The translations under genes were made by a program, and so were the position numbers. From Alloyangia mangrovi (GTDB taxonomy: Bacteria; Pseudomonadota; Alphaproteobacteria; Rhodobacterales; Rhodobacteraceae): a stretch of 64,000 nt of DNA. The stretch covers positions 62,001 to 126,000 of the forward strand of contig NZ_NTHN02000004.1 of the NCBI RefSeq assembly GCF_002300555.2, read 5' to 3'. This document shows, one piece after another, positions 4,225 through 37,074 of the stretch; the first letter of the stretch is position 1; each line of letters starts with the position of its first letter. The notes beneath the pieces are model-generated. The model was not told the DNA's origin and searched no databases. It saw nothing but the letters and a program-made list of their open reading frames with translations.

Positions 4225-5664
4225 TCAGCCCTTGGCGCCCTGGCCGCGGGCGTAGACGTCCTCGTAGCGCACGATGTCGTCCTCGCCGACGTAGGAGCCG
4301 GTCTGCACCTCGATCAGCACCATAGGCATCTTGCCGGGGTTCTCCATGCGGTGAACGGCGCCGAGCGGGATGTAGACGCTCTCGTTCTCGGTGACCAGCT
4401 TCACCTCGTCGTCCACCGTCACCCGCGCCGTACCCTCGACCACGATCCAATGCTCGGAGCGGTGGAAGTGGCTCTGCAGCGACAACGAAGCGCCGGGGTG
4501 GACGTGGATGCGTTTCACCTGGAAGCGGCTGCCGACCACGAGGCTTTCGAACCAGCCCCAGGGGCGGTGGTCCATGGGGAACTCGACCGCCTGCTTGGCC
4601 CCCTTCTTCTTCAGCGCGTCGACCGCCAGCTTCACGTCCTGCGCGCGGTCCTTGCTGGCCACCAGCACGGCATCGTTCATCGCCACGGCGATGACATCCT
4701 TGAGGCCAATGCCGACGATCTCGATGGCCTCCGAGCCGGTGCGCAGCATCGAGCCCTCGCAGTCGATTGCCGTCGCGCCCTCGCTGCAGACCACGCCGTT
4801 CTCGTCCTGCTCGAGCTCGCGCCAGATCGCGTCCCAGCCGCCGAGATCGGACCAGCCGCTGTCGAAGGGCACCACTTCCAGCGCGTCGGATTTCTCCATC
4901 ACCGCGTAGTCGATCGAGATGTCCTCGGCCTCGGACCAGGGGCCGGGCGCAAGGCGCAGGAAGCCGAGGTCCACCTCGGCCTGGTCCACCGCGGCGCTGA
5001 CCGGGGCCAGCAGGCCGGGGGCGTATCTCTCGAAGGCGGCGAGGATGTCCTTGACGCGGAAGAGGAAAATCCCGGCGTTCCAGAGGAAGCCGCCCTGCGC
5101 CAGCATCTTCGCGGCAGTCTCGGCGTCGGGCTTCTCGACGAAGCGCTTGAGCGGCGTGGTGGCGGGACCGGCGTTGGCCAGGTCGAGCTCGAGGTAGCCG
5201 TAGCCGGTCTCGGGCCGGTCGGGGTGGATGCCGAAAAGCACCAGCTTGCCCTGCTCGAGCGCGGCCCGGCCGTTCTCGACCGCGGCGCGGAAGGACTCGC
5301 GGTCGGGGATGCGGTGATCCGAGGGCGCCACCAGCATCGCGGCCTCGGGGTCCTTGCGCGACAGGTGCAGCGCCGCGGCGAGCACCGCGGGGGCGGTGTT
5401 GCGCCCCTCGGGCTCGATCAGGATCGCGCCGGGGTCGATGCCGATGGCCGAGAGCTGCTCGGTCACCACGAAGCGGAAGTCGGAATTGGTCACGACGACG
5501 GGCTTGGTGAAGCAGGCGCTGCCCGAGAGCCGCTCGGCGGTGGCCTGGAACAGGCTGGTGTCATCCACGAGCCGGGCGAACTGCTTGGGATAGCTCTTGC
5601 GCGAGACCGGCCAGAGCCGCGTGCCCGAACCGCCACAGAGAATGACCGGGGTAATTGCCTGCAT
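4225..5664 (-). CDS. manC: Mannose-1-phosphate guanylyltransferase / mannose-6-phosphate isomerase
   Basis: A 479-residue bifunctional enzyme that makes GDP-mannose and isomerises fructose-6-phosphate to mannose-6-phosphate. The N-terminus carries the nucleotidyltransferase signature GGSGTRLWP...PKQF. The C-terminal 110 residues are a type II phosphomannose isomerase cupin with HFHRSEHW and the closing EDDIVRYEDVYAR block. The frame is open to 5781, but the ATG at 5664 has an upstream GGAAGG and starts exactly at the family's usual N-terminus. Together with manB it supplies GDP-mannose for surface polysaccharide. Confidence 0.93.
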   Translation of the reverse strand: MQAITPVILCGGSGTRLWPVSRKSYPKQFARLVDDTSLFQATAERLSGSACFTKPVVVTNSDFRFVVTEQLSAIGIDPGAILIEPEGRNTAPAVLAAALHLSRKDPEAAMLVAPSDHRIPDRESFRAAVENGRAALEQGKLVLFGIHPDRPETGYGYLELDLANAGPATTPLKRFVEKPDAETAAKMLAQGGFLWNAGIFLFRVKDILAAFERYAPGLLAPVSAAVDQAEVDLGFLRLAPGPWSEAEDISIDYAVMEKSDALEVVPFDSGWSDLGGWDAIWRELEQDENGVVCSEGATAIDCEGSMLRTGSEAIEIVGIGLKDVIAVAMNDAVLVASKDRAQDVKLAVDALKKKGAKQAVEFPMDHRPWGWFESLVVGSRFQVKRIHVHPGASLSLQSHFHRSEHWIVVEGTARVTVDDEVKLVTENESVYIPLGAVHRMENPGKMPMVLIEVQTGSYVGEDDIVRYEDVYARGQGAKG

Positions 5665-5973
5665 GAATGTCTTTCCTTCCAACTGCCGAGCAATGCGACT
5701 GCGGATGCTTTTAGAAACACCGCCTAACAGCCGCATGAAACCACTGCGAAGGAAAAGAGCATCTGCCAAAAGGAACAGCAAGCGGAACGCAACTTAAACT
5801 GGTGCATTGCGCGCGATATTGTCCCGTCAGAGATCGTCCAATTGGCAGCCGCTCGTTTTCCCGTCACGGCGACAGAAACCTTGGACGCGCGGGGTTTGCA
5901 AGGCGTGGCGGCGTCTTGTCGGCGAGACGGCGAGAAATTGTCGCCGGGCTGCAAGAAAGGCGGTGAAATGGAA
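5665..5973. other. Intergenic region upstream of manC
   Basis: About 300 bases between the manC start and the terminator of the polyamine operon. It presumably holds the manC promoter (minus strand). I see no convincing promoter hexamers, operators or small genes. Confidence 0.35.
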
Positions 5974-6000
5974 AGGGCCGGGAGCATTGCTCCCGGCCCT
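5974..6000 (-). terminator. Terminator of the polyamine operon
   Basis: AGGGCCGGGAG, a 5-base loop, then CTCCCGGCCCT forms a perfect 11-pair stem about 30 bases past the dehydrogenase stop on the minus strand, followed there by a short T stretch. Confidence 0.75.
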
Positions 6001-6031
6001 TGATATGAGTCGCTGTCAGGCTATCAGGCCG

Positions 6032-7268
6032 TCACGCGTTCCAGGGGCGGTCGCCCTTGGCATCCTTGACGCGGGTCGGCAGGCCGATCTCGTCGAGGAT
6101 GGTGAAGAAGGGCTTGGGGTCGAGTTCCTCTACGTTGCGCATGGACTTGGCGTCCCACTCGCCCGAGGCAACCAGCATGGCAGCCGCCACCGGCGGCACG
6201 CCGGCGGTGTAGGAGATGCCCTGGCTGCCCACTTCCTCGTAGGCTTCCTTGTGGTCGGCGACGTTGTAGACGAACATCTCCACCTCTTCGCCGTCCTTCA
6301 CGCCCTTCACCAGATCCCCGATGCAGGTCTTGCCGGTGTAGTCGGGCGCCAGCGAGGAGGGGTCGGGCAGCACGGCCTTGACCACCTTCAGCGGCACGAC
6401 CTCGAGGCCCTCGGCGGTTTTCACAGGTTGCTCGGAAAGCAGGCCAAGCGATTGCAGCACGGTGAAGACGTTGATGTAATGCTCGCCGAAGCCCATCCAG
6501 AAGCGCACGTCGGCCTGCGGGTAGTTGGCCGAAAGCGAGTGCACCTCGTCATGGCCCGACTGGTAGGCGCGCTGGGTGCCGACGACGGGCAGATCCCAGT
6601 CCTTGCCCGAGGCGAACATCGAGGTCTCCTTCCACTGCTGGTCTTCCCAGTAGTAGACGGTGCCGGTGAACTCGCGGAAGTTGATCTCCGGGTCGAAGTT
6701 GGTGGCGAAATACTTGCCGTGGGAGCCGGCATTGATGTCGACGATGTCGATGCTCTTCACCTCGTCCATCTGGTCGATGGCGAAGCGGGCGAAGGCATTG
6801 ACCACGCCCGGATCGAAGCCGGCGCCGAGGATCGCGGTGACGCCCTTCTCGGCGCAGAGGTCGCGCTTCTTCCACTCGTAGTTGGCGTACCACGGCGGGG
6901 TCTCGCAGATTTTCGCGGGATCCTCGTGGATCGCGGTGTCGATATAGGCGGCACCGGTCTCGATGCAGGCGTCGAGCACGGTCATGTTGACGAAGGCGCT
7001 GCCCACGTTGATCACGATCTGCGCGCCGGTGTCGCGGATCAGCTGGGCGACGGCGGCCGTGTCCATCGCGTCAACCTGGTGAGCCTTGAGGACGCCCTCT
7101 ACCTTCATCGCGCCCTTTTCGCGGACCGACTCAAGGATCGCTTCGCATTTCGAAAGCGTCCGGCTGGCGATATGAATCTCGCCGAGCACATCGTTGTTCT
7201 GAGCGCATTTATGCGCCACGACCTGAGCGACGCCGCCTGCGCCGATGATGAGAACGTCTTTTTTTCAA
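6032..7268 (-). CDS. Carboxy(nor)spermidine dehydrogenase (saccharopine dehydrogenase family), frame broken near the start
   Basis: Reductively condenses a diamine with aspartate semialdehyde to carboxy(nor)spermidine, the first step of an aspartate-dependent polyamine pathway. The restored protein begins with a Rossmann motif (IIGAGGVAQ) after a TTG start at 7268, with AGGT about 9 bases upstream. As read, a T7 run (7259-7265, + strand) shifts the frame at codon 3, so a naive call would start at 7219 and lose the NAD(P) motif. The 1,237-base span is 412 codons plus one base (411 residues). The decarboxylase gene lies 44 bases upstream, which decides between saccharopine and carboxyspermidine chemistry. 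Confidence 0.85.
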
Positions 7269-7312
7269 CTCACTGGACCTCCGTCTTTTGTCCGTCTTGG
7301 GTTTGCGCGCGC

Positions 7313-8404
7313 TCAGGAGAGCGCGGCGCTGAAATCGTCGTAGGTGAAGCCGCGCACCAGCCGCTCGGTGCCGTCGAGCTCGCGGATGGCGATCGAGGGC
7401 ATCTGCACCCCGTTGAACCAGTTCTTCTTGACCATCGTGTAACCGGCGGCGTCCTGAATGCTGAGCCGGTCGCCGGGGTTCAGGGCCTTGGGGAACATGA
7501 ACTCGCCGAAGATGTCACCTGCCAGACAGGACTTGCCGCAGATCATCCAGGGCTGATCGCCGCTCTCGTCCATCTTGGCGCTCTCGCGGTAGATCAGCAG
7601 GTCGAGCATATGCGCCTCGATCGAGCTGTCGACGATCGCGAGGTTCTTGCCGTTGAAGAGCGTGTCGAGCACCGTCACCTCCAGCGTGGTCGATTTCGTG
7701 ATCGTCGCCTCTCCGGGCTCAAGATAGACCTGCACCTCGTTTTCGCCAGCAAAACGCTTCAGGCGCTCGGCGAGGCGGTCGAGCGGGTAGTCCTCGCCGG
7801 TGAAGTGGATGCCGCCGCCGAGGCTGATCCATTTCATCTGGCGGATCAGGTGGCCGAAGCGCTGCTCGATGGAGCCGAGCATATTGTCGAAGCGCTCAAA
7901 GTCGGCGTTCTCGCAGTTGTTGTGGAACATGAAGCCGCTGATCTGCTCGAGCACCGGCTCGATGTCCTTGGGGTCATGTTCGCCGAGGCGCGAGAAGGGG
8001 CGGGCGGGGTCGGCGAGATCGAAGCTCGAGGTCGACACGCCCGGGTTCACCCGCAGTCCGCGGGTGTGGCCGCGGCTGACCTCCTCGAAGCGCGAGAGCT
8101 GCGCCGCGGTGTTGAAGATGATCTTGTCCGAGCTCGCCAGCACCTCGTCGATCTCGTGATCGGCCCAGGCCACGGAATAGGCGTGGGTCTCGCCCGGGAA
8201 TTTTTCCCGTCCCAGCTTCACCTCGAAGAGCGAGGAGGAGGTGGTGCCATCCATGTACTCGCTCATCATGTCGAAGACCGACCATGTGGCAAAACACTTG
8301 AGCGCCAGCAGCGCCTTGGCGCCGGAGGTCTCGCGCAGGTGGGCGATCTTCTCGAGATTGGGCAGGAGCCGCGATTTGTCGATCAGGTAATAAGGCGTCT
8401 GCAT
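7313..8404 (-). CDS. nspC: Carboxynorspermidine / carboxyspermidine decarboxylase
   Basis: A 363-residue PLP-dependent decarboxylase of the alanine racemase fold (Orn/DAP decarboxylase group III). It converts carboxyspermidine or carboxynorspermidine to spermidine or norspermidine. The PLP lysine is Lys36 in LLALKCFAT. The glycine-rich phosphate loop SLGGGIHF and the partner-subunit cysteine in CGKSCLAGD are present. It is the first gene of a two-gene operon with the dehydrogenase. The pair replaces the S-adenosylmethionine route to spermidine. Confidence 0.92.
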   Translation of the reverse strand: MQTPYYLIDKSRLLPNLEKIAHLRETSGAKALLALKCFATWSVFDMMSEYMDGTTSSSLFEVKLGREKFPGETHAYSVAWADHEIDEVLASSDKIIFNTAAQLSRFEEVSRGHTRGLRVNPGVSTSSFDLADPARPFSRLGEHDPKDIEPVLEQISGFMFHNNCENADFERFDNMLGSIEQRFGHLIRQMKWISLGGGIHFTGEDYPLDRLAERLKRFAGENEVQVYLEPGEATITKSTTLEVTVLDTLFNGKNLAIVDSSIEAHMLDLLIYRESAKMDESGDQPWMICGKSCLAGDIFGEFMFPKALNPGDRLSIQDAAGYTMVKKNWFNGVQMPSIAIRELDGTERLVRGFTYDDFSAALS

Positions 8405-8533
8405 CGGTGGTCACCTCCGGACAGCGAACACGGGGAAGCCGTGCCAATATAGCGCAAGCCCGCCGAGAACAATGCCCCCCCTGTTGCCGCAGGACTCTGA
8501 CGGGCGTGTGACGGTCCGGGAGGGCGGAGGCAA

Positions 8534-8575
8534 AAGCCTTCGAAGGCTTCTGCAACTCTTTTCGAAGAGAGTTGC
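8534..8575. repeat. Tandem pair of hairpins upstream of nspC
   Basis: The first is a perfect 16-base palindrome (AAGCCTTCGAAGGCTT, 8534-8549). Two bases later a second stem pairs GCAACTCT with AGAGTTGC around TTTTCGA (8552-8575). The compact arrangement looks like a dispersed intergenic repeat rather than a plain terminator. It sits in the tail-to-head gap between the ectoine operon and nspC. Confidence 0.5.
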
Positions 8576-8593
8576 GACGCTGCGGTGCGGCAG

Positions 8594-8622
8594 GAAAAAG
8601 GGGCGGCCCGAAAGCCGCCCCC
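8594..8622 (-). terminator. Terminator of the ectoine operon
   Basis: An 8-pair stem (GGGGCGGC / GCCGCCCC) with a CCGAAA loop is followed on the minus strand by five T residues, 34 bases past the aspartokinase stop. This is a classic intrinsic terminator. Confidence 0.8.
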
Positions 8623-8655
8623 AGTTGGTCGAAGTCCCTGTCGGATCGTGCAGGC

Positions 8656-10083
8656 TCAGGCGGCTGTCTTCAGCTTCTGCTTGGCCTGCGGGGAAACGAA
8701 GGCGCCATGCAGGGCGGCGATCACCGGCTCGAGGTCGTTGCGCTCGAGGATGAACTGCACGTCCACATTGCGCGGACCCTGGGTCGCGCCGATCGATTCA
8801 TAGCCCGCTTCCGCGATGGCCTGCAGGCCCCGGGTCAGCACGCAGAGGGTGCTGAGATCCCGGCCGATGACCGAGGCCATCGACAGCGTACGCGAACTGA
8901 TCTTGGCCTGCGGGTAGAGCTTGGCCAGATCGTCCTCCACCCGGCGCATCGTCTTGAGCGAGCTGTCCAGGTAGTGGGTGATGGTGTTGGCGTTCGACAC
9001 TTTCGAGACGATGCGCACCCCGTGGCGGGTGAGCACGTCGAGGATCGCGGCGTCGTAGCCCTTCACCCCGACCATGTCCTGCTCGAAGACCTCGAGCGCC
9101 ACGATGTCGAGCCCGGTGACGATCTCGACCGCCGGGGTCTCGGCGGGCTGGTCGTCGATCAGCGTGCCCGGATCGCCCGGCTCGAAGGCGTTGGTGACGC
9201 GCAGCGGCACCTGTGCCTGGCGCAGAGTCTTGGCCGCCTTGGGGTGGATCGCCTCCATCCCCATGTTCGACAGCTGGTCGGCCACGTCGTAGTTGGTGCG
9301 GCCCAGCTTGCGGACGTTTTCCGCGCCCACAAGCTTGGGGTCGGCCGAGCTGAGGTGGAACTCCTTGTGGATGATCGCCTCGCGTGCGCCGGTGAGGGCG
9401 GCAAGCTTGGAGAAAGTCACCTCGGAATAACCACGGTCGAATTCGCGCATCAGCCCTTCGGCGCATTGCGCATAGCCGGTGACGATGGGCATCTCGGCGG
9501 CGGGGTCAACACCTTCCATCGCCTTCATGATGCGCTCTTCGAGCGTGTAGTGCCCGTCGTCGCGCCAGCCCGAGAGGTCGACGTTGCGCGCGTTCACACC
9601 CGCGCGTTGGAGCATCAGCACGGTGACATAGGCCGAATGCGCCTCGCCCAGCCCCGAGAGCAGCTCGCGGATCTGCAGCATGTGCTCGGAGAGCTGGAAG
9701 TGCCCGTAGGAGCAGAGGCGCTGCAGGTCGATCAGGCAGTTGCGCGCGCCCTCGATGCGGTTACGCACGAAGTCGGTTGCCTGCTCGACGTCGCCGGGAT
9801 GACCCAGCACGGCTTCATGTGCCTCGATCATCGCCTGCGACACCTCGGTCAGCGCGTCGTGCCAGCCGTGGCCGGTGTCGGAGTTGGCAAACTGGCCGTA
9901 AACGCCCGGCTTGCCCGATTTCTTGTGCTCGAGCAGCAGGTCGGTAATGCCGCCGAAGGCGGAGACCACGAAGACACGACCGTAGAGATCATCCCCCTCG
10001 CGGCCGCCGATGAGCAACGTGTCGCGCAGTTCGTTGAGGCGGGACATGCTCGTCCCGCCAATTTTCTCGACGGTGTGGGTCAT
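8656..10083 (-). CDS. ask: Ectoine-associated aspartate kinase (Ask_Ect)
   Basis: A 475-residue aspartokinase, last gene of ectABC-ask. It phosphorylates aspartate, the committed step toward aspartate semialdehyde, the precursor of EctB's substrate. The N-terminus THTVEKIGGTSMSR is the divergent form of the usual KFGGTS motif. The C-terminal third carries ACT-type regulatory repeats (around VKGYDAAILDVL and MASVIGRDLSTL). It starts 3 bases after ectC. The dedicated isoenzyme is known in many ectoine clusters and is thought to escape feedback control by lysine and threonine. Confidence 0.9.
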   Translation of the reverse strand: MTHTVEKIGGTSMSRLNELRDTLLIGGREGDDLYGRVFVVSAFGGITDLLLEHKKSGKPGVYGQFANSDTGHGWHDALTEVSQAMIEAHEAVLGHPGDVEQATDFVRNRIEGARNCLIDLQRLCSYGHFQLSEHMLQIRELLSGLGEAHSAYVTVLMLQRAGVNARNVDLSGWRDDGHYTLEERIMKAMEGVDPAAEMPIVTGYAQCAEGLMREFDRGYSEVTFSKLAALTGAREAIIHKEFHLSSADPKLVGAENVRKLGRTNYDVADQLSNMGMEAIHPKAAKTLRQAQVPLRVTNAFEPGDPGTLIDDQPAETPAVEIVTGLDIVALEVFEQDMVGVKGYDAAILDVLTRHGVRIVSKVSNANTITHYLDSSLKTMRRVEDDLAKLYPQAKISSRTLSMASVIGRDLSTLCVLTRGLQAIAEAGYESIGATQGPRNVDVQFILERNDLEPVIAALHGAFVSPQAKQKLKTAA

Positions 10084-10086
10084 GGC

Positions 10087-10479
10087 TTACGCGACCTCCT
10101 CGGCCGGTGCGTAGGAGCCGTCCTCGCGGTGCACCTCGGTGCCGGTGACGGGCGGGTTGAAGCAGCAGGCCATGTGAAGCTCTTCCTCGGCCCGCAGGAT
10201 GTGCTTGTCGTTGAGGTTCAGCGCATACATGACGCCGGGCTTGATCTCGTGGGTCTCGCCGGTGGCGACATCGGTGATCGAGCCCTTGCCCGCCATGCAA
10301 TAGACGCTCTCGAAGTGGTGCTTGTAGTGGAACGTGTGTTCCGAGCCCGCCTCGAGCACGGTGATGTGGAACGAGAAGCCCATGCCGTCCTGCGCCAGCA
10401 GCATCCGGGTGGAGGTCCACTGCGCGTCGGCGATGTGCTTGTCGGTTTTCTTCAGTTCGTTGAAATCGCGTACAATCAT
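10087..10479 (-). CDS. ectC: L-ectoine synthase
   Basis: A 130-residue cupin that cyclises N-gamma-acetyl-diaminobutyrate to ectoine. From the ATG at 10479 (MIVRDFNELKK), the residues known to be important in characterised EctC fall at the family positions: Thr40, Glu57, Tyr85 and His93. That agreement decides against the upstream alternative start at 10497. It lies 4 bases after ectB and 3 bases before the aspartokinase. Confidence 0.96.
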   Translation of the reverse strand: MIVRDFNELKKTDKHIADAQWTSTRMLLAQDGMGFSFHITVLEAGSEHTFHYKHHFESVYCMAGKGSITDVATGETHEIKPGVMYALNLNDKHILRAEEELHMACCFNPPVTGTEVHREDGSYAPAEEVA

Positions 10480-10483
10480 GGTG

Positions 10484-11773
10484 TCACTCCGCGGCAATCT
10501 TGTGGTTGTTGAGGCTCGTGGCGACGCTCTCGCGCAGGATGCCGAAGCCCTTGCGGAAGGTCTCTTCCGAGGTGGTCAGCGGCGCGAGCACCTTGACGAC
10601 CTCGTCGCCCGCACCCGAGGTTTCGATGATCAGCCCGCGCTCGAAGGCCTCGGCGCAGATCGCGCCGGCCAGCTCGCCCGAGCCGACATCGACGCCGCGC
10701 ATCAGGCCGCGGCCCTTGAGGTAGGCACCGGGGATCATCTCGGCGATGGTCTCCAGTTCGTCCTCGATCAGCTGCGCCTTCTCGGCCAGCGCGCGCTGGA
10801 AGCGGCCATCTGCCCAGAACTTCTCGAGCGCCACGCGCGCCGTGATGAAGGCATGGGTGTTGCCCCGGAAGGTGCCGTTGTGCTCGGCCGGTTTCCAGAC
10901 GTCCAGTTCCGGCTTCATCAGCAGGGCGGCGAAGGGCAGGCCGAAGCCCGAGAGCGATTTCGCCAGCGGAATGAGGTCCGGCTCGACGCCCATCTCCTCG
11001 AAGGAGAAGAAGGTGCCGGTTCGGCCGATCCCGGCCTGGATGTCGTCGGCGATGAGCAGCGCGCCGTGCTTCTTGGCGAGGCGGGCGATGCCGCGCAGCC
11101 ATTCGGCGGAGGCGGCATTGAGGCCACCCTCGCCCTGCACCGGCTCCACGAGGAAGGCGGCGGGGGCATCGAGACCCGACGAGGGGTTCTCGAGCATCAT
11201 CTCGATCTGCGCGAGCGTGTCGACATCGGGGCCAAAGGCGCCCTCGTAGGGCATGTGGGTCACGCCCTGAAGCGGCATGCCGCCACCGTTGCGCTTGCCC
11301 TTGTTGCCGGTCGCCGCCAGCGCGCCCACGGTCATGCCGTGGAAGCCGTTGGTGAAGGCGATGATGTTGGTGCGACCGGTGACCTTGCGCGCGAGTTTCA
11401 TCGCCGCCTCGACGGCGTTGGTGCCGGTCGGGCCGACCATCATCACCTTGTGGTCCATGCCACGCGGTTCGAGGATCAGGCGCTCGAAGGTCTCGAGGAA
11501 GGCTTCCTTGGCGTCGGTGTGCATGTCGAGACCATGGGCGATGCCATCGCTCATGATGTGCTCGACCAGCGCCGCCTTCATGTGCGGGTCGTTGTGGCCG
11601 TAGTTCAGCGAGGAACAGCCGGCGAGGAAGTCGATATAGGTCCGGCCCTGATCGTCGGTCAGTTCCGAGCCACGGGCGGAGGTGAAGCTCACCGGGAAGG
11701 AGCGGCAGTAGGAGCGTGCCTCGCTCTCGCGGCGAGCGTAAATAGTCGGGCCGTTAGACGTGTCTTTCGGCAT
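10484..11773 (-). CDS. ectB: Diaminobutyrate--2-oxoglutarate transaminase
   Basis: A 429-residue class III PLP aminotransferase that converts aspartate semialdehyde to L-2,4-diaminobutyrate with glutamate as donor. The PLP lysine is Lys272 in LAKSLSG, and the cofactor-contacting aspartate lies in IADDIQAGIGRTG. The length is normal for EctB. It lies 57 bases after ectA in the ectABC-ask operon. Confidence 0.96.
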   Translation of the reverse strand: MPKDTSNGPTIYARRESEARSYCRSFPVSFTSARGSELTDDQGRTYIDFLAGCSSLNYGHNDPHMKAALVEHIMSDGIAHGLDMHTDAKEAFLETFERLILEPRGMDHKVMMVGPTGTNAVEAAMKLARKVTGRTNIIAFTNGFHGMTVGALAATGNKGKRNGGGMPLQGVTHMPYEGAFGPDVDTLAQIEMMLENPSSGLDAPAAFLVEPVQGEGGLNAASAEWLRGIARLAKKHGALLIADDIQAGIGRTGTFFSFEEMGVEPDLIPLAKSLSGFGLPFAALLMKPELDVWKPAEHNGTFRGNTHAFITARVALEKFWADGRFQRALAEKAQLIEDELETIAEMIPGAYLKGRGLMRGVDVGSGELAGAICAEAFERGLIIETSGAGDEVVKVLAPLTTSEETFRKGFGILRESVATSLNNHKIAAE

Positions 11774-28683: not shown

Positions 28684-29868
28684 ATGATCTCCCGCAACCT
28701 CAGGCATCTGCGGGTCTTTCTCGCCGTGGCGGAAGAGGCCTCGATCACCGGCGCGGCGGCGCGGTTCAAGGTTTCTCAGCCGGCCGTCACCCAGATGCTC
28801 GGCAAGCTCGAGACGCAGGCCGGGGGCGCGCTCTTCGACCGGACCAGCCGCGGGCTGGTGCTGACCGAACGCGGGGCGGTGCTGGCGGCGCGTCTGGGCC
28901 GGGTCTTCGCGCAACTCGACGCGGCGCTGGCGGCGATCTCGACGCGCCTGCCCGAGGTGGCGACAAGCGGCCAGCTTCAGGCTCTCTTCGCGGTGCATGA
29001 CACCGGCAGCTTCACCCGCGCCGCCCGCGCGCTGGGGCTGGCGCAGCCCACTGTGCACCGCGCGGTCAGCCAGCTCGAGCAGGAGGTCGGCGCGCAGCTT
29101 TTCGAGCGCACCTCGCACGGGCTGAGTCCGAGCCGGGCCTGCAGTGCACTGGTGCCGCGGGCCCGGCTCGCGCTCAGCGAGATTGATCAGGCCGACATGG
29201 AACTGGGAGAGCTGGACGGGACCGAGACCGGGCGTATCGTCATCGGCACGCTTCCGCTGTCGCGCTCGGTGTTGTTGCCGCGGGCCCTTGCGGCCTTCCG
29301 CCAGGCGCGGCCGAAGATGCTGATCTCGGTGGTCGACGGGGCCCACGACATGCTGCTGGCGGCGCTGCGGCAGGGCGATGTCGACATCATGCTGGGCGCG
29401 CTGCGCAGCCAGAGCCCGGCACCGGACGTGGTGCAGGAGCCGCTTTTCCAGGACCGTTTCGCCGTCGTCGCGCGGCCGGGGCATGAGCTGGTGGGTGAGG
29501 GGCCGCTCTGCGCCGAGCAGCTCGGCCGCTACCCGTGGATCGTGCCCGGGCCCGGCACCCAGCTAAGGTACCAGTTCGAGGCACTTTTCCAGCGCCAGGG
29601 GTTGCCGCTTCCGGACAGTATCATCGAGGCCGGTTTCATTCTGCTTATACGAGAGTACCTCGATCTCAGCGAGTCCCTCGCCTTCACCTCGGGGCGGCAG
29701 GCTGCGCCGGAGCTGGATCGCGGGAACCTCGTGCAGCTTCCCCTCGCGGAAACATTGCCGTTTCGCGATATCGGCCTGACCCTGCGGGAAGATTGGCTGC
29801 CGACCCGGGCGCAGCGGCTGATGCTCGACTGCCTGCGTGGCGCGGCGGAGGCGCTGCCGGACGTATAG
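28684..29868 (+). CDS. LysR-type regulator with two tandem HTH domains
   Basis: At 394 residues it is about 90 longer than a normal LysR protein. One LysR HTH spans about residues 6-65 (SITGAAARFKVSQPAVTQMLGKLE) and a second about 97-155 (SFTRAARALGLAQPTVHRAVSQLE), both with the full helix pattern. A single effector-binding domain follows. The two HTHs are diverged, so this is not a recent duplication or an assembly error. It lies 112 bases upstream of a TRAP operon in the same direction and probably controls it. Confidence 0.88.
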   Translation: MISRNLRHLRVFLAVAEEASITGAAARFKVSQPAVTQMLGKLETQAGGALFDRTSRGLVLTERGAVLAARLGRVFAQLDAALAAISTRLPEVATSGQLQALFAVHDTGSFTRAARALGLAQPTVHRAVSQLEQEVGAQLFERTSHGLSPSRACSALVPRARLALSEIDQADMELGELDGTETGRIVIGTLPLSRSVLLPRALAAFRQARPKMLISVVDGAHDMLLAALRQGDVDIMLGALRSQSPAPDVVQEPLFQDRFAVVARPGHELVGEGPLCAEQLGRYPWIVPGPGTQLRYQFEALFQRQGLPLPDSIIEAGFILLIREYLDLSESLAFTSGRQAAPELDRGNLVQLPLAETLPFRDIGLTLREDWLPTRAQRLMLDCLRGAAEALPDV

Positions 29869-29886: not shown

Positions 29887-29980
29887 TGCGTCGAATCTAT
29901 TGGACCCTGCCGAGCGATGATTGCACAGGGGAGCCGTACATGGCCTGCCGTGCGGCAGGTGCGATCTCGGGAGGATTTCC

Positions 29981-30946
29981 ATGCGTTCTGTCATTCTCGC
30001 CGCGGCTCTCGGCCTTGTTTCGACCGCCGCCCTCGCAGAAGACTTCAAATTTGCCAGCTTCTTCGCGCCGACCCATCCCTATGTCGAGGGGGCCTTTGAT
30101 CCCTTCGCCGAGGCGGTGGCCGAAAAGTCGGATGGTGCGCTGTCGGTGACCATCTACAACGGTGGCGAACTCGGCCCGGGCCCGGCCGAGCAGTACAGCC
30201 GCGTTCTCGACGGCGTGGCCGAGCTGGCCGTCTCGCTGCCGGGCTACACCGCCTCGACCTTTCCGCTGACCCTGGTCGCGGAGCTGCCGGGCGTGCTCGA
30301 CACCGAGACCGGCACGGCCGATATCTGGAACAACATCGAGCTCTTCCAGCCCGAGTACCGCCGCGCCATCCTGGTGAGCCTGTGGTCCTCGGCGCCGAAC
30401 CAGCTTTACACCCGTGACAAGGCCGTGCGCAGCCCGGCCGACGTCAAGGGCATGAAGATCCGCGTGCCCTCGCGCAACACCGGCCTGCTGGTCGAAGCCT
30501 GGGGTGCGACCCCTGTCTCGATGCCGGTGAGCGAGATCTACAACGCCATGCAGACCGGCGTGATCGACGGGGCAATGATCGACACCACCGCGACCCGTGC
30601 CTTCCGCCTTGGCGAAGTGGCCAACTACCTGACCATCGGCATGGACACGACGAACTCGCCGTTCTTCATCCTTGCCAACCGCGACGCCTTCAACAGCCTC
30701 GATGAGGCGCAGCAGAAGGCGCTGCTCGACGCCGGCAAGGAGGCCTCGGTCAAGGCCAACGAGGTGCAACTCGCGGTTGCCGCCGGCGGTGTCGAGGCCT
30801 TTGCCGAGATCGAGGGCCGCGAAGTCATCGAGCTGACCGCCGAGGAGGCCGCCGCGTTCAACGCGCTGTCCGCGCCGGTCACCGAGAAGGTCGTCGCCGA
30901 GACCGGGGGCAATGCCCAGGCCATCGTCGACGCGCTGGCCCACTGA
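29981..30946 (+). CDS. dctP: TRAP transporter substrate-binding protein (DctP family)
   Basis: A 321-residue periplasmic protein with signal peptide ending TAALAEDF near residue 20. The conserved arginine lies in MKIRVPSRNTG, and the ligand-pocket block is MPVSEIYNAMQTGVIDGAM. The ATG at 29981 has GGGAGG 7 bases upstream. It belongs to a different binding-protein subgroup from the dctP at 23 kb. The ligand is unknown, though the family mostly carries organic acids. Confidence 0.9.
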   Translation: MRSVILAAALGLVSTAALAEDFKFASFFAPTHPYVEGAFDPFAEAVAEKSDGALSVTIYNGGELGPGPAEQYSRVLDGVAELAVSLPGYTASTFPLTLVAELPGVLDTETGTADIWNNIELFQPEYRRAILVSLWSSAPNQLYTRDKAVRSPADVKGMKIRVPSRNTGLLVEAWGATPVSMPVSEIYNAMQTGVIDGAMIDTTATRAFRLGEVANYLTIGMDTTNSPFFILANRDAFNSLDEAQQKALLDAGKEASVKANEVQLAVAAGGVEAFAEIEGREVIELTAEEAAAFNALSAPVTEKVVAETGGNAQAIVDALAH

Positions 30947-30951
30947 GCCAG

Positions 30952-31455
30952 ATGATGCGTCGCGCAACCAACGCCCTGTCGGTTTTCACCGACAGGGCCA
31001 CCGCCGTTCTGGCCGTGGTGGGCGGAGTCGCCCTGCTGTCGCTGGTGGTGCTGATCTTTGCCGGTGTGGTGCTGCGCTACGCCTTCGGCCAGCCTATTCT
31101 CGGCTCGAACGAGATCATCCAGCTTGCCGCCGTGGCGCTGGTGATGTCCGCGTTGCCCTATTGCACCCATCTCAATGGCCACGTGAGCGTCGACGTCTTC
31201 GACCGCATGCTGGGCCGCTTTGGTCGGCGTGCCGGCGACGTGCTGGCGCGGCTGCTGTCGGGCTACGCGCTGGGGGTGCTCTGTCATCGTGCCTATTATA
31301 AGGCATTGGATGCCGCCGAATTCGGCGACACCACCAACATGCTGGGCCTGCCGCTTTGGCCCTTCTACGGAATTCTCGCCCTCGGTTGCGGCTTCTGCGT
31401 GCTGGTCTTCGCGCTGCAGATCCTCAAGGTGCTCGTGCTCGGAGAAGAACAATGA
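30952..31455 (+). CDS. dctQ: TRAP transporter small permease (DctQ)
   Basis: A 167-residue protein with four hydrophobic segments. It begins 5 bases after dctP and overlaps dctM by 4 bases (ATGA). Translation could equally start at the second Met (30955). Confidence 0.88.
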   Translation: MMRRATNALSVFTDRATAVLAVVGGVALLSLVVLIFAGVVLRYAFGQPILGSNEIIQLAAVALVMSALPYCTHLNGHVSVDVFDRMLGRFGRRAGDVLARLLSGYALGVLCHRAYYKALDAAEFGDTTNMLGLPLWPFYGILALGCGFCVLVFALQILKVLVLGEEQ

Positions 31456-32759
31456 CCGAAGTCTCTGCCGGGCTGATCGGCATTGCCGCGCTCTTCCTTC
31501 TGATGATCCTGCGCACGCCGGTGGCCTTTGCCATGTTGCTGGTCGGCTTTTTCGGCTACTGGGGCCTGTCGGGATTCCGCAGCGCCAGCGCCATGCTGTT
31601 GACCGAGAGCTACTCGGCCGTCGCCTCCTATTCGCTGATCGTCGTGCCGATGTTCGTGCTGCTCGGCAACATCGCCTCGGTCGCGGGCTACTCGCGCGGG
31701 CTTTATGATGCGGCCTACGCCTGGGTCGGTCGTTTCAAGGGTGGGCTCGCATCGGCCTCGGTGCTCGGCTGCGCCGCCTTTTCGGCGGTCTCCGGTTCCT
31801 CCGTCGCCACCGCCGTCACTCTGGGCAAGGTCGCCCTGCCGCAGATGAAGCGCCTCGGCTATGCCGACAGCCTCGCCACCGGGTCGGTGGCGGCGGGCGG
31901 CACGCTGGGCTTCCTGATCCCGCCCTCCACCGGTTTCGTGCTGTACGCGATCCTCACCGAGGAATCGATCGGGCGGCTCTTCATGGCGGGCATCCTGCCG
32001 GGCATTCTGCTGTGCGCGCTCTTCATGGGGGTGATCTGGCTGCAGGCGACGCTGCGTCCCGAGGACGGCCCGCAGGGCGCCAAGATTGGCTGGATGGAGA
32101 AGCTGCGGATCTCCTCCGAGGCCTGGCCGCTCTTCGGTGTCATCCTGGTGTCGATCGGCGGCATCTACCTCGGGGTCTTCACCCCGGTGGAGGCCTCGGG
32201 GATCGGCGCGGGACTGGTGATCCTGCTGGCTCTGGTCCAGCGCAAGATCAACTGGGCGGGATTCAAGGAGGCCGTGCTCGACACGCTGAAGACCAGCGCC
32301 ATGCTCTATATGGTGGTGATCGGGGCCAACGTGCTGAACCCCTTCCTTGCCATCACCCACATTCCGGCGACGCTCGGCGCGCAGCTTGAGACACTGGGGC
32401 TGGGCGCCTATGGCACGCTGATCGTGATCCTGCTGGCATATGTGGTGCTCGGCATGTTCATGGATGGCCTGTCGATGCTGGTCATCACCATCCCGATCGT
32501 CTTCCCAGTGATCACCGGCTTCGGCTTCGATCCGATCTGGTTCGGCGTGGTGGCGGTCATCGTCATCGAGATGGGCATGATCACCCCGCCGGTGGGGATG
32601 AACGTCTTCGTCGTCCGCGGGGTTGCCGGGCCGGATGTTCCGCTGACCACCGTGTTCAGTGGCGTCGCTCCTTTCCTGATCGCCATGGTGATCGGGCTGG
32701 TGCTGATCATCCTCTTCCCGCAGATCGCCACGCTGTTGCCAAACACGATGTTCGGCTGA
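31452..32759 (+). CDS. dctM: TRAP transporter large permease (DctM)
   Basis: A 435-residue polytopic membrane protein with family blocks AAFSAVSGSSVATAVTLG, GGTLGFLIPPST and MITPPVGMNVFVV. It completes a dctP-dctQ-dctM operon in the order binding protein, small and large permease. The frame is intact, unlike the first DctM. Confidence 0.92.
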   Translation: MTEVSAGLIGIAALFLLMILRTPVAFAMLLVGFFGYWGLSGFRSASAMLLTESYSAVASYSLIVVPMFVLLGNIASVAGYSRGLYDAAYAWVGRFKGGLASASVLGCAAFSAVSGSSVATAVTLGKVALPQMKRLGYADSLATGSVAAGGTLGFLIPPSTGFVLYAILTEESIGRLFMAGILPGILLCALFMGVIWLQATLRPEDGPQGAKIGWMEKLRISSEAWPLFGVILVSIGGIYLGVFTPVEASGIGAGLVILLALVQRKINWAGFKEAVLDTLKTSAMLYMVVIGANVLNPFLAITHIPATLGAQLETLGLGAYGTLIVILLAYVVLGMFMDGLSMLVITIPIVFPVITGFGFDPIWFGVVAVIVIEMGMITPPVGMNVFVVRGVAGPDVPLTTVFSGVAPFLIAMVIGLVLIILFPQIATLLPNTMFG

Positions 32760-33207
32760 CGCCTTCGGGACCGAAATGCACGGTCCGGTCACGCACAGGG
32801 GACAGTGCGACAGGGGAGGCCTCGCCGAGGGATCGGCGGGGCCTTTTGCTTGGTCGTGCGGAGGGCCGCCTCCGCGCGCCGCGAAAAACGGCGAATCATT
32901 GCCGGATTTTGTGGCAGCGCGCCGCTTTCGCGGTATTGTCGCTGCGCCGCGGCGGTGCGGCGGTGCGGGAAGTGGCGCAGTTCGGGGCACGGGTGGCGAT
33001 TTGCTGCCAAGTTTTAGGTCAAGAAAGGGGCTAAGCCGCGGAAGCGGCGCCCCTGATCGCGTTCAAAGCGTGGCCATGCCCTTAATTTTCGTGTAATAAG
33101 ATTCGGGTAGTTAAGTTTTGATCCCACGCGCAAGCTACAGATTTTAAGTCGATATTTTCTGGGGGCCCACGTCATTCTCGCGGGTCCTGACAGGAGGTGC
33201 TTTTCAT
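32760..33207. other. Gene-free stretch between the TRAP operon and the UDP-sugar enzyme
   Basis: About 450 bases. The first part holds the dctM terminator. The middle is GC-rich without supportable genes. From about 33080 it is AT-rich, with TTGATC and ATTTTA 17 bases apart (about 33117-33145) as a weak promoter candidate. A strong AGGAGGT lies 9 bases before the ATG at 33208. Confidence 0.4.
32817..32846 (+). terminator. Terminator of the second TRAP operon
   Basis: AGGCCTCGCCG and CGGCGGGGCCTT form a GC-rich stem around a short loop, followed by TTTT. It lies about 60 bases past the dctM stop. Confidence 0.75.
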
Positions 33208-34323
33208 ATGCGAATTGGAACGGAGAACTCGATGAATATTGTAATCCTTGGATGCGGGGGCTTTATCGGCAGCCATCTGCTGGATCGCCTGCTCACCACC
33301 ACCGATCACAAGATCATCGGATGGGACCCGGAGAGCTCGAAGATCCAGAAGCACCTGGATAATCCCAACTTCACGCTTCATCAGCGCTACGTGGATGACC
33401 CCGAAACCCAACAGGATCTGCGGGATGCTGTGGCCAATGGGGACGTGGTGATCAACCTTGCCGCGATCTGCAACCCGTCTGAGTACAACACCAACCCGAT
33501 CAGCGTGATCAAATCCAACCTGTTCGACGTCTATCCGATCGTCGAGCTTTGCGTGGAATACAAGCGCTGGTTGATCAGCTTCTCGACCAGCGAGTGCTAC
33601 GGTCGCACGCTCTCCAGCTATGTCGGCGACACGAGCTACGAGAACCCCGACCTCTACGAACTCAAGGAAGACGAGACACCGCTTATTATGGGGCCGATCG
33701 TCAACCAGCGCTGGACCTATGCCTGCGCCAAGCAGATGGTCGAGCGTCTCGTTTATGCCCACCACAAGGAAGACGGCCTGCCGTTCACCGTGGTGCGCCC
33801 GCTGAACTTCTTCGGCCCGCGCATGGACTACATCCCGCAGCGCGACGGCGATGGCGTTCCCCGGGTTCTGGCCTGCTTCATGGGCGCGCTGCTCAACGGC
33901 GATCCGATGAAGCTGGTGGACGGTGGCAAGGCACGCCGCACCATCGTCTCGATCTACGAGGCCGTGGATGCGATCTGCCGCATGCTCGACAATCCCGAGA
34001 AGGCCAACGGTCACGCCTTCAACATCGGCAACCGCAACAACGAGGTCACCATGGCCGAGCTGGCGGACCTGATGCGCAAGACCTACGCCAAGATCACCGG
34101 TGATGCGTCCTACGAGGATTACCCGATCATCGAGGTCAGCGCCGAGGAGTTCTACGGCGAGGGCTACGAGGACTGCGATCGCCGCATGCCCGACATCTCC
34201 AAGGCCAAGGAGCTTCTTGGCTGGGAGCCCAAGATCGCGCTCGAGGACGTTCTTCTCGACACGATGACCTACTTCCATAACGAGTACGCAGGCTCCATGA
34301 AGCCCGCACAGGTGGCCGAATAG
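33208..34323 (+). CDS. UDP-apiose/UDP-xylose synthase-like NAD-dependent epimerase/dehydratase
   Basis: A 371-residue extended short-chain dehydrogenase. Rossmann motif GCGGFIG, catalytic block STSECYG (Ser128, Glu129) and the YxxxK pair Tyr171/Lys175 are present. Long stretches match my recollection of plant UDP-apiose/xylose synthase: NPSEYNT, QRWTYACAKQ, GVPRVLACF, KLVDGG, EFYGEGYEDCDRR. The ArnA decarboxylase domain is a more distant relative. Such enzymes oxidise and decarboxylate UDP-glucuronate, yielding UDP-apiose and/or UDP-xylose. Cys88 matches one plant active-site cysteine, but the position of the other (FSTCEVYG in plants) is Ser here, so the product is uncertain. The start at 33208 has the best ribosome site; 33232 is possible. 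No glycosyltransferase is adjacent. Confidence 0.8.
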   Translation: MRIGTENSMNIVILGCGGFIGSHLLDRLLTTTDHKIIGWDPESSKIQKHLDNPNFTLHQRYVDDPETQQDLRDAVANGDVVINLAAICNPSEYNTNPISVIKSNLFDVYPIVELCVEYKRWLISFSTSECYGRTLSSYVGDTSYENPDLYELKEDETPLIMGPIVNQRWTYACAKQMVERLVYAHHKEDGLPFTVVRPLNFFGPRMDYIPQRDGDGVPRVLACFMGALLNGDPMKLVDGGKARRTIVSIYEAVDAICRMLDNPEKANGHAFNIGNRNNEVTMAELADLMRKTYAKITGDASYEDYPIIEVSAEEFYGEGYEDCDRRMPDISKAKELLGWEPKIALEDVLLDTMTYFHNEYAGSMKPAQVAE

Positions 34324-34351
34324 CCCCCTCGCCATTTCGGTATTTCCTCCC

Positions 34352-34386
34352 CTGCCGCGCTCCTCCCCGAGCGCGGCAGTTGCATT
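34352..34386 (+). terminator. Terminator after the UDP-sugar enzyme
   Basis: CTGCCGCGCTC, a 6-base loop and GAGCGCGGCAG form a perfect 11-pair stem, then TTGCATTTC, 29 bases after the stop codon. Confidence 0.75.
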
Positions 34387-34460
34387 TCTGACTTCCGGAG
34401 GGCGGCCTGTGCGGCGCAATGACCCTTCGCGCGGCCGAAGCGCTCGCCTATAAGCGCGGC

Positions 34461-35351
34461 ATGGATATCGGTCGCCTTCCTCCCCTGCGCAGCCTCATCG
34501 CCTTTCAGACCGTCGCGCGCTGCGGCAGCTTCACCCGCGCCGCCGAGCTGCTGGCGCTCACCCAGAGCGGCATTAGCCGGCAGATCGCCCAGCTCGAGGA
34601 TCATGTCGGTGCGGCGCTCTTCGAACGCCAACCGGCGGGCGTGGTGCTGACCCGGATCGGCGAGGAATACGCCAAGGAGGTGGGGCGCGCGCTCGACGCG
34701 CTGCAATCGCTCGAGGCCGGCCAGATCACCCGGCGCGGGCAGGACCAGGTGACCATCGCCTGTTCACGCGCCGTGGCCGATCTGTGGATGCTGCCGCGGC
34801 TCACCCGGCTGCGCGACGCTTTCCCGGCGCTTGAGTTTAAGCTCATCGTCAACGACTTCTTCCAGCAGTTGCGCCACGACGAATACGACCTGGCGATCTA
34901 TTATCGCCCCAACCGCCCGGCGGATCATGTGGTCGATGCTCTGGGGCCGGAGGAGATCGTGCCGGTCATGGCGCCGGGCGGCATGCCGCTGGCCGAGGCC
35001 GCGGCGCCGATGCTGCTGACCGTGGAGGAGACCCACAAGGAGTGGACTGACTGGGGCAACTGGCTTGCCTCCGTCGGCCTCAAGCTGCCCGAGGCGACGA
35101 CCCGCTGGAAGCTCGGCGACTACCATCTGTCGGTCGAGGCGGCGCGGCGCGGGGTCGGTTTTGCCATGGGCTGGACATGGTTCCTCGCCGATTACCTCGA
35201 AAGCGGCGTGCTGGTCCCGGCCGACGCGCGACCCTTCCGCGGGCATGGCGAGTATTACCTCATGCGCCCGACCACCCGTCACCAGCGGCAGGCCGCGCGG
35301 CAGGTCGGCGACTGGCTGGTCGAGAGCAACCGGCGGTGGCGGGCAGGCTGA
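34461..35351 (+). CDS. LysR-type regulator (GcvA-like subgroup)
   Basis: A 296-residue LysR protein. The HTH is SFTRAAELLALTQSGISRQIAQLE, and the effector domain has the GcvA-like block YDLAIYYR. The ATG at 34461 (MDIGRLPPLRSL) gives the subgroup's usual N-terminus, so the upstream start at 34419 is less likely. It lies directly upstream of the peptide-type ABC operon and probably regulates it. Confidence 0.87.
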   Translation: MDIGRLPPLRSLIAFQTVARCGSFTRAAELLALTQSGISRQIAQLEDHVGAALFERQPAGVVLTRIGEEYAKEVGRALDALQSLEAGQITRRGQDQVTIACSRAVADLWMLPRLTRLRDAFPALEFKLIVNDFFQQLRHDEYDLAIYYRPNRPADHVVDALGPEEIVPVMAPGGMPLAEAAAPMLLTVEETHKEWTDWGNWLASVGLKLPEATTRWKLGDYHLSVEAARRGVGFAMGWTWFLADYLESGVLVPADARPFRGHGEYYLMRPTTRHQRQAARQVGDWLVESNRRWRAG

Positions 35352-35413
35352 CCGCCGACCGCCGGGCAAGAGCTTGATTTCACATGCTGAAAGAGGGCGA
35401 TTGAAATGCCCTC

Positions 35414-35446
35414 AGAGGGGTATGACAAAAAATCATTTGTACCTCT
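35414..35446. promoter_or_regulatory. Nested dyad upstream of the ABC operon
   Basis: Outer arms AGAGGGGTA and TACCTCT and inner arms ATGA and TCAT flank a CAAAAAA centre, 75 bases before the binding-protein gene. It is a candidate operator for the upstream LysR protein. Confidence 0.4.
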
Positions 35447-35520
35447 AAGCGTTCCCCGAAATGTTCAGCGCAAAGCTGGCCAAGAGCCGCGTATAAGCAA
35501 GAATTCACAGGAGAGACGAC

Positions 35521-37074
35521 ATGACGAAACTTCATGACATGTCCGGCATCAGCCGTCGCGGCCTGCTCGCGGGCGCTGCCGGCATGGGCCTTGTGGGGCT
35601 CAGCGGCCTGCCGCTGCGCGCGCAGGAGGCCCCGCGCAAGGGCGGCACGCTGAAGCTCGGGATCAGCGGCGGCTCGACCACCGATGACTTCGACATCCGC
35701 AAGCTGGCCGACTGGGTGCCGGTGAACCAGGCCTACATGGTCATGAACGGCCTCGTCGAGATCGACTCCGACAACATCGCCCAGCCCGAACTCTTCTCGG
35801 CCTGGGACGCGGAAGAGGGTGCCGCCGCCTGGGTGTTCGATATCCGTCAGGGCGTGACCTTCCACAACGGCAAGAGCCTCACCGCCGATGACGTGATCTA
35901 CTCGCTCAACCTGCACCGCGGCGAAAGCTCCTCGGCCGCGCGTTCGATCCTCGCGCCGATCACCGGGATCGAGAAGCTCTCGGACCTGCAGATCCGCATC
36001 ACGCTGGAAAGCGGCAACGCCGACCTGCCCTACCTGCTGTCGGACTATCACCTGCTGGTGGTGCCCGAGGGCTTCGACGACTGGTCGAACCCTGTCGGCA
36101 CCGGCCCCTTCATCCCCGAACGTGTCGAGCCCGGTGTGCGTGGCCGCTTTGTCCGCAACGAGAGCTACTGGAAGCCCGGCTGCGCCAATGTGGACGCCGT
36201 CGAGGTGGTGGTGATCAACGACGTCACCGCCCGCACCAACGCGCTGATGTCGGGGCAGGTGCATGCGATCAACGCGGTGGACTTCAAGACCGTCACCCTG
36301 CTCGGCCGCAACCCCAAGCTCGAGATCGTGCGCTCGGCCGGGGGCCAGCACTTCACCTTCCTGATGGATTGCACCAAGGCGCCCTTCACCGATGTGAACG
36401 CAAGACTGGCCATCAAGTACGCCGTGGACCGCGAGCAGCTGCTGAAGACCGCGCTCAACGGCTTTGGCCAGCTGGGCAACGACCACCCGATCCCGCAGAC
36501 CGACCGCTTCTACAACTCCGAGCTGGCGCAGCGCGCCTATGACCCCGAGAAGGCGACGTTCCACGCCAAGAAGGCCGGTTTCGATCCGCTTGCCGTCACC
36601 CTCTCGGCCTCGGATGCAGCCTTCTCCGGCGCCGTCGACGCGGCAGCCGTCTTCCGCACCGCGGCCAGCGGGGCAGGGGTCGACGTGACCATCAAGCGCG
36701 AACCGGCGGACGGCTACTGGAGTGACGTCTGGATGCAGGTGCCCTTCTGCATGTCCTACTGGGGTGGCCGTCCGACTGCCGACCAGATGCTGTCGATCGC
36801 CTACGAGTCCACCTCCTCCTACAACGACACGCGCTGGAGCAACGAGCGCTTCGACGCGCTGCTCAAGGAAGCCCGCGCGCTGCTCGACGAGGAGAAGCGC
36901 CGCGAGATCTACTGGGAGTGCCAGGCGCTGATCCACGAGGACGGCGGCGCGATGATCCCGATGTTCGGCGATTATCTCGACGCGGTGTCGAAGGACGTGA
37001 AGGGCGTGAAACCCCATGCGATGTTCAACCTGATGGGTGCACGCATGGCCGAGAAGGTCTGGCTGGACGCCTGA
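35521..37074 (+). CDS. ABC transporter substrate-binding protein, peptide/opine family
   Basis: A 517-residue family-5 solute-binding protein (DppA/OppA fold). It has a Tat-type signal (SRRGLLAGAAG) ending near LRAQE, so it is exported folded. Typical blocks include FDIRQGVTFHNG and NPVGTGPF. It is the first gene of an importer operon, and its stop overlaps the first permease start. The ligand is probably a peptide-like or amide/ester compound handled by the downstream hydrolase. Confidence 0.9.
   Translation: MTKLHDMSGISRRGLLAGAAGMGLVGLSGLPLRAQEAPRKGGTLKLGISGGSTTDDFDIRKLADWVPVNQAYMVMNGLVEIDSDNIAQPELFSAWDAEEGAAAWVFDIRQGVTFHNGKSLTADDVIYSLNLHRGESSSAARSILAPITGIEKLSDLQIRITLESGNADLPYLLSDYHLLVVPEGFDDWSNPVGTGPFIPERVEPGVRGRFVRNESYWKPGCANVDAVEVVVINDVTARTNALMSGQVHAINAVDFKTVTLLGRNPKLEIVRSAGGQHFTFLMDCTKAPFTDVNARLAIKYAVDREQLLKTALNGFGQLGNDHPIPQTDRFYNSELAQRAYDPEKATFHAKKAGFDPLAVTLSASDAAFSGAVDAAAVFRTAASGAGVDVTIKREPADGYWSDVWMQVPFCMSYWGGRPTADQMLSIAYESTSSYNDTRWSNERFDALLKEARALLDEEKRREIYWECQALIHEDGGAMIPMFGDYLDAVSKDVKGVKPHAMFNLMGARMAEKVWLDA

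Follow-up and report, generated by a model that had tools for sequence, protein, structure and literature searches.

We believe that a gene in the 64,000-nucleotide stretch of Alloyangia mangrovi DNA studied here (contig NZ_NTHN02000004.1, positions 62,001 to 126,000; hereafter the window, in whose coordinates its features are given) very probably encodes an AXS/bUAS-type UDP-apiose/UDP-xylose synthase, one that would make UDP-apiose with UDP-xylose as a co-product, and in which a serine at position 128 would bring no qualitative change of product. The gene (33208..34323, + strand) starts with ATG and codes for 371 amino acids. The open reading frame and the motifs quoted from it by a first-pass annotation, itself made from the sequence alone, are real: AAICNP (Cys88), FSTSECYG (Ser128, Cys130), GVPRVLACF, KLVDGG and EFYGEGYEDCDRR are all there. 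Its place in the rare bacterial AXS family, a family already known, is well supported.

The resemblance to AXS goes beyond the general fold. In a phmmer search against solved structures, Arabidopsis AXS1 (6h0n) came first with E 4.5e-115, far above chance, followed by ArnA (3.8e-60) and human UXS (1.7e-24), and in MAFFT pairwise alignments the window protein is 61.9% identical to Xanthomonas pisi UAS, 50.4% to AXS1, 36.8% to E. coli ArnA, 36.3% to U4kpxs (L033; L numbers are our own labels) and 31.4% to the UXS of its own genome. The AlphaFold2 model (20 sequences; mean pLDDT 84.6, pTM 0.86) has chain B of the same AXS1 structure (6h0n_B) as its top fold match, with E 1e-43, a TM score of 0.89 and 47% identity, the best ArnA match reaching E 2.8e-35. 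The protein also carries the Thr-Tyr-Lys set of the SDR superfamily, the GxxGxxG NAD+ motif and the equivalents of Glu141, Arg182 and Arg341 (AXS1 numbering), all of which are common to ArnA and UXS and therefore cannot on their own tell the families apart. Identity as a UXS was ruled out on the phmmer values and by a separate UXS in the same genome (L021, E 1.2e-115 to human UXS).

The tree gives the same answer. From a table of 62 rows, 8 duplicates, the UXS row L021 and L042 were left out, and IQ-TREE placed the remaining 52 on two sides of a branch with support 99/98: on one side 27 distinct sequences with cysteine at AXS1 position 100, the window protein, AXS1 and X. pisi UAS among them, and on the other 25 ArnA, U4kpxs and other rows. 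Without three long rows (L026, L027, L032) the division is 27 versus 22, with support 100/100. AXS-type and other rows had been sorted first by the residue at position 100, and the tree then agreed with that split. It was built without UXS and replaces an earlier tree with a UXS outgroup, in which the branch to the outgroup was about 10 long and the AXS side did not resolve (two changes, with one in 28% of bootstrap trees). The first-pass annotation had named placement inside ArnA or UXS beforehand as refuting its assignment; no such placement was seen, and sequence, fold and tree together bear out an AXS-type enzyme. Within the AXS side, plant AXS1 groups with mostly proteobacterial rows (100/98), and Myxococcota and Fibrobacterota rows fall outside that group (94/88, 95/83); an origin of plant AXS within bacterial AXS may be taken from this as a lead, drawn from one plant sequence and accompanied by a long-branch warning from the program. 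AXS occurs in rows from Pseudomonadota, Myxococcota, Fibrobacterota and Binatota and on one cyanobacterial contig.

Curated profiles raise the question of whether the window protein has been misgrouped with AXS and instead produces UDP-4-keto-pentose, as a decarboxylase of the ArnA or RsU4kpxs type would; the best NCBIfam model is PRK11908 (4-keto-pentose/xylose synthase). The score is 275.6 bits, and the cut-off of 294 is not reached; the full-length bifunctional ArnA model gives 247.2 bits against a cut-off of 777, with the window protein aligning to its C-terminal part only. These scores and the tree position outside both groups led us to rule out an ArnA or U4kpxs identity. The window protein also has cysteine rather than alanine at AXS1 position 100, and no arn genes lie in the neighbourhood examined; overall, misgrouping seems to us extremely improbable.

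The AXS assignment turns on active-site residues as well. Position 100 is cysteine in 35 of the 62 rows (the 27 distinct AXS-type rows once the 8 duplicates are removed), and in none of the other 27, which have alanine (25) or valine (2); the fragments L025 and L028 were too short for this comparison. The equivalents of AXS1 Cys100, Tyr105, Thr139, Glu141, Arg182, Tyr185, Lys189, Asn214 and Arg341 are conserved in all 27 AXS-type rows. Position 140 behaves differently: it is serine in 20 AXS-type rows, cysteine in five (AXS1, L013, L016, L018, L019) and alanine in two (L015, L017), and among the 27 non-AXS rows it is serine in 26 and cysteine in one, the archaeal L032. The comparison suggests a simple rule, that cysteine at position 100 marks AXS-type enzymes and residue 140 does not. 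In the window gene the corresponding codons are those of Cys88 (33469..33471, + strand), which matches AXS1 Cys100; of Thr127-Ser128-Glu129-Cys130-Tyr131 (33586..33600, + strand), which match AXS1 Thr139-Cys140-Glu141-Val142-Tyr143; and of the SDR catalytic YxxxK motif from Tyr171 to Lys175 (33718..33732, + strand), which match Tyr185 and Lys189. A 2025 study describes AXS Cys100 as a key residue in ring opening and in proton transfer of the substrate, and contrasts Cys140 with the serine of ArnA and UXS (PMC12820599). Thus one part of the first-pass annotation stands, in that the ring-opening cysteine is kept as Cys88, and another falls, in that Ser128 is no unusual alteration. The window protein lacks the second active-site cysteine, but with serine there in 20 of the 27 AXS-type rows, the assayed X. 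pisi UAS included, this cysteine is no defining feature of AXS.

What, then, of the proposal that Ser128, together with a cysteine two positions further on, moves the product toward UDP-xylose or a UDP-4-keto sugar? ArnA and UXS also have serine at position 140, as such a shift would have it, and cysteine at position 142 is confined to the genus, being present in eight Alloyangia/Salipiger genes from seven genomes (8 of the 27 AXS-type rows), with valine in all remaining rows examined. Cys130 is accordingly the one real peculiarity that the alignment points to in the Alloyangia/Salipiger enzyme. Serine is, however, the majority residue of AXS-type rows, and X. pisi UAS reads STSEVYG (L007; the 2017 authors worked with the same contig, NZ_JPLE01000032). 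Both UDP-apiose and UDP-xylose are formed in vitro by the purified enzymes of X. pisi, Geminicoccus roseus and Candidatus Entotheonella, the G. roseus enzyme (GrUAS) giving a ratio of about 1.7:1 (PMC5607165). Since serine predominates and the serine-bearing X. pisi enzyme makes both products, Ser128 is no sign of a changed product; moreover, similar GT2 genes follow AXS whichever residue stands at 140, and the genome already has a UXS. We therefore set the proposed shift aside as very unlikely. An archaeal AXS-like protein, encoded among glycosyltransferase genes on a Halomarina sp. BCD28 plasmid (L032:7980-9056), shows Ala100 and Cys140, the reverse of the window protein, and falls outside the Cys100 group. 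L026 and L027, from the same family as the window, form a second AXS-like group with Val100 and Phe105, and the L026 gene adjoins a possible GT61-like gene (24.4 bits, under the Pfam cut-off of 27).

The general course of the reaction can be drawn from papers on relatives (PMC12820599, PMC7984243, PMC5324594). Tightly bound NAD+ would oxidise UDP-glucuronate at C4, Cys88 would aid ring opening via retro-aldol cleavage, CO2 would be released and an aldol step would form the five-membered ring, and reduction by NADH would then yield UDP-apiose; UDP-xylose would arise beside it as the co-product without a branch. Ser128 would stand in for AXS1 Cys140 just as serine does in X. pisi UAS, and the UDP-apiose would be destined for a surface glycan or an apioside. 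UDP-apiose is the gene's likely purpose because the separate UXS already supplies UDP-xylose; the presence of that UXS also means that UDP-glucuronate is probably made. For the window protein itself we infer the activity, the product mix, this supply and the biological sink. Apiose has long been regarded as a plant sugar, and here is a bacterium that probably makes UDP-apiose without a recognised transferase.

Partner genes of AXS in other bacteria indicate where such a product might go. In X. pisi a GT90 apiosyltransferase lies downstream of AXS (PMC6193724), and homologues of this GT90 lie 3' of AXS in Lysobacter chinensis (L008, 73%) and in a Lysobacterales metagenome-assembled genome (L009, 65%). 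A second arrangement is found in 8 of 19 genome-contig loci, where a GT2 gene immediately follows AXS: L010:9097-9843, L014:3470-4291, L016:9017-9745, L017:9077-9796, L018:9366-10091 and L019:9101-9823, together with L013 and L015, in which the GT2 starts are indistinct. These GT2 proteins are 45-57% identical to that of L010 (the Pfam run covered those of L010 and L016 only); GT2 and AXS overlap in L014, L016, L017 and L019 and lie 307 bases apart in L018. The paired loci come from Binatota, Fibrobacterota and Myxococcota/Deltaproteobacteria, and their AXS have serine, cysteine or alanine at position 140. We take the GT2 of L010-type loci to resemble DPM1-type polyprenyl-phosphate transferases, and a lipid-carrier pathway for apiose or another pentose is possible. 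Beyond this lies a wider scenario that we regard as unlikely, in which an old bacterial AXS family, with plant AXS nested in it, may in several phyla load apiose or pentose on a lipid carrier through the GT2 pairing, Alloyangia being a lone branch whose Cys130 would tune the ratio toward one product for an apiose surface glycan.

A third arrangement involves aminotransferases. On a Paraburkholderia plasmid (L031:7890-10352) a single protein of 820 amino acids joins AXS to a DegT/DnrJ/EryC1/StrS aminotransferase, and a Paracoccaceae metagenome-assembled genome (L004:1-7470) has an AXS 81% identical to the window protein, a homologue (54%) of the aminotransferase part of L031, and homologues of L031's radical SAM, luciferase-like and hydrolase genes. 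Aminotransferase-linked AXS suggests a branched amino sugar or natural-product pathway.

Several points weigh against UDP-apiose synthesis by the window enzyme, the identity of its best-scoring profile among them. The Paraburkholderia fusion implies that serine-type AXS need not always give UDP-apiose as the end product, and Cys130 is, among the rows examined, peculiar to the genus. A search by title and abstract, with most subscription papers beyond reach, found no activity data for the window protein or the enzymes of its genus among the papers listed. On the side of supply, the only complete nucleotide-sugar dehydrogenase found in the genome (L035) is nearest to GDP-mannose 6-dehydrogenase (E 1.9e-127, against 3e-69 for UDP-glucose dehydrogenase). 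On the side of the sink, no glycosyltransferase adjoins the window gene, and searches of the genome for GT90, XpApiT and L010-type GT2, run without a positive control, came back empty. None of the partner types from other genomes lies beside the window gene, and no search of its own genome was aimed at the aminotransferase.

The dehydrogenase gap may belong to the assembly (5.5 Mb in 169 contigs), which by protein and DNA similarity belongs with Alloyangia/Salipiger in the Roseobacteraceae. L035, which matches TIGR03026, was dropped as a UDP-glucose dehydrogenase in view of its closer relative, and 21-residue N-terminal pieces of the dehydrogenase superfamily stand at the ends of contigs C2 (7620-7682, L073) and C151 (6-68, L074), probably two similar nucleotide-sugar dehydrogenase genes broken by assembly in a repeated gene. 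Because these two contigs end in such pieces, a UDP-glucose dehydrogenase gene may have been cut by contig ends.

The lack of a glycosyltransferase neighbour is also what one would expect of a plasmid passenger gene, cut off from any apiose sink. The AXS gene is present in 7 of 20 genus genomes, its own included, and in the completely sequenced relatives it is plasmid-borne; in A. pacifica YSBP01 the plasmid measures 497 kb and also carries rep/par, flagellar, pca and ectoine genes. Its surroundings vary: compared with the window, A. pacifica YSBP01 (L029) has a different left flank, and L001, L002 and L030 have a different right flank. On the Salipiger sp. CCB-MM3 plasmid NZ_CP014598.1 (L030/L063, L064) the AXS and LysR genes are each present in two copies, and the second AXS copy (L064) has no intact N-terminal frame, as a passenger's might. 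Against this, frame, ribosome site and terminator are conserved across the genus, at 94-99% protein identity, while the flanking genes differ, and on balance we consider a mere passenger unlikely. The neighbouring LysR gene (E 1e-90) is found in 5 of the 20 genus genomes, all five with AXS. Among 394 genomes of the family, matches at E 1e-60 occur in five: the window's own genome and G098 with Cys100-type proteins, the two with the Val100 proteins L026 and L027, and G008 with two fragments.

The gene stands alone, as had been proposed, and has its own signals. The ribosome binding site AGGAGGTG (33192..33199, + strand) has a GAGGTG core that is present in all nine aligned genus rows, among them the duplicate pair L030/L063; in that pair and in L064 the site reads AGAGGTG. 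The MRIGTEN codons and the inverted repeat of the terminator hairpin are likewise conserved in 9 of 9. That hairpin, intrinsic-terminator-like and with an 11 bp stem, lies at 34352..34379 (+ strand). Met9 (33232), 8 codons downstream of the first ATG, is a possible alternative start, and is the protein start in the NCBI annotation of two relatives. A simple scan for a sigma-70-type promoter found none near the gene, and an Rfam scan of 30000-37000 had no match. On the upstream side a LysR regulator gene occupies 28684-29868 and TRAP transporter genes 29921-32759; on the other side are a LysR regulator and a peptide-type ABC system. Farther off, 27-32 kb upstream on the same contig, are a sugar transferase, a phosphomannomutase and a mannose-1-phosphate guanylyltransferase, surface-glycan genes that share the contig without a tie to apiose. 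At the left of the window several + strand open reading frames have no Pfam match, the real genes there being - strand frames. Among these, at about 4225-11773, are class III aminotransferase (ectB-like), aspartate kinase, carboxynorspermidine-decarboxylase-like and saccharopine-dehydrogenase-type genes, so that ectoine genes adjoin a norspermidine-type polyamine pathway beside GDP-mannose genes, matching the A. pacifica annotation.

Bacterial UDP-apiose synthases have been called rare, which fits the literature surveyed. We take Yangia to be the former name of Alloyangia, and the window gene is 97-99% identical to its counterparts in Alloyangia pacifica. A homologue from this group had already been named in 2017, which qualifies the claim of rarity: YpUAS of Yangia pacifica, named and not assayed, is 49% identical to AXS1 and 64% to XpUAS (Smith and Bar-Peled 2017, PMC5607165). 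The same paper counted eight bacterial UAS genes and gave Y. pacifica a UXS as well; it saw no conserved bUAS operon, with few genes then at hand (PMC5607165). The Alloyangia gene is thus a new example of a family whose homologue in this genus was known from 2017. A search for literature on apiose exopolysaccharides and on AXS-linked aminotransferases found nothing further on the window enzyme.

Set beside the known systems, the window protein is closest to X. pisi bUAS, with which it shares its tree group, Cys100, Ser140 and 62% identity; the differences are valine at position 142, where the window has Cys130 (X. pisi being the one assayed bUAS in this residue comparison), and the genetic setting, as the X. 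pisi UAS gene leads an operon with the GT90 apiosyltransferase and a GT2 xylosyltransferase (PMC6193724) and the window gene is solitary. Arabidopsis AXS1 is alike in 50% of residues, in predicted fold and in each of the nine conserved residues from Cys100 to Arg341 listed above; it differs in having Cys140 and Val142 where the window protein has serine and cysteine. ArnA and RsU4kpxs share the SDR fold, the Thr-Ser-Glu stretch and the same aligned arginines, but have Ala100 and form a separate tree group, and the window protein scores under their curated cut-offs. UXS, finally, shares the SDR superfamily and UDP-glucuronate decarboxylase chemistry and lacks Cys100, the copy in the window's own genome being 31% identical to the putative UDP-apiose synthase described here.
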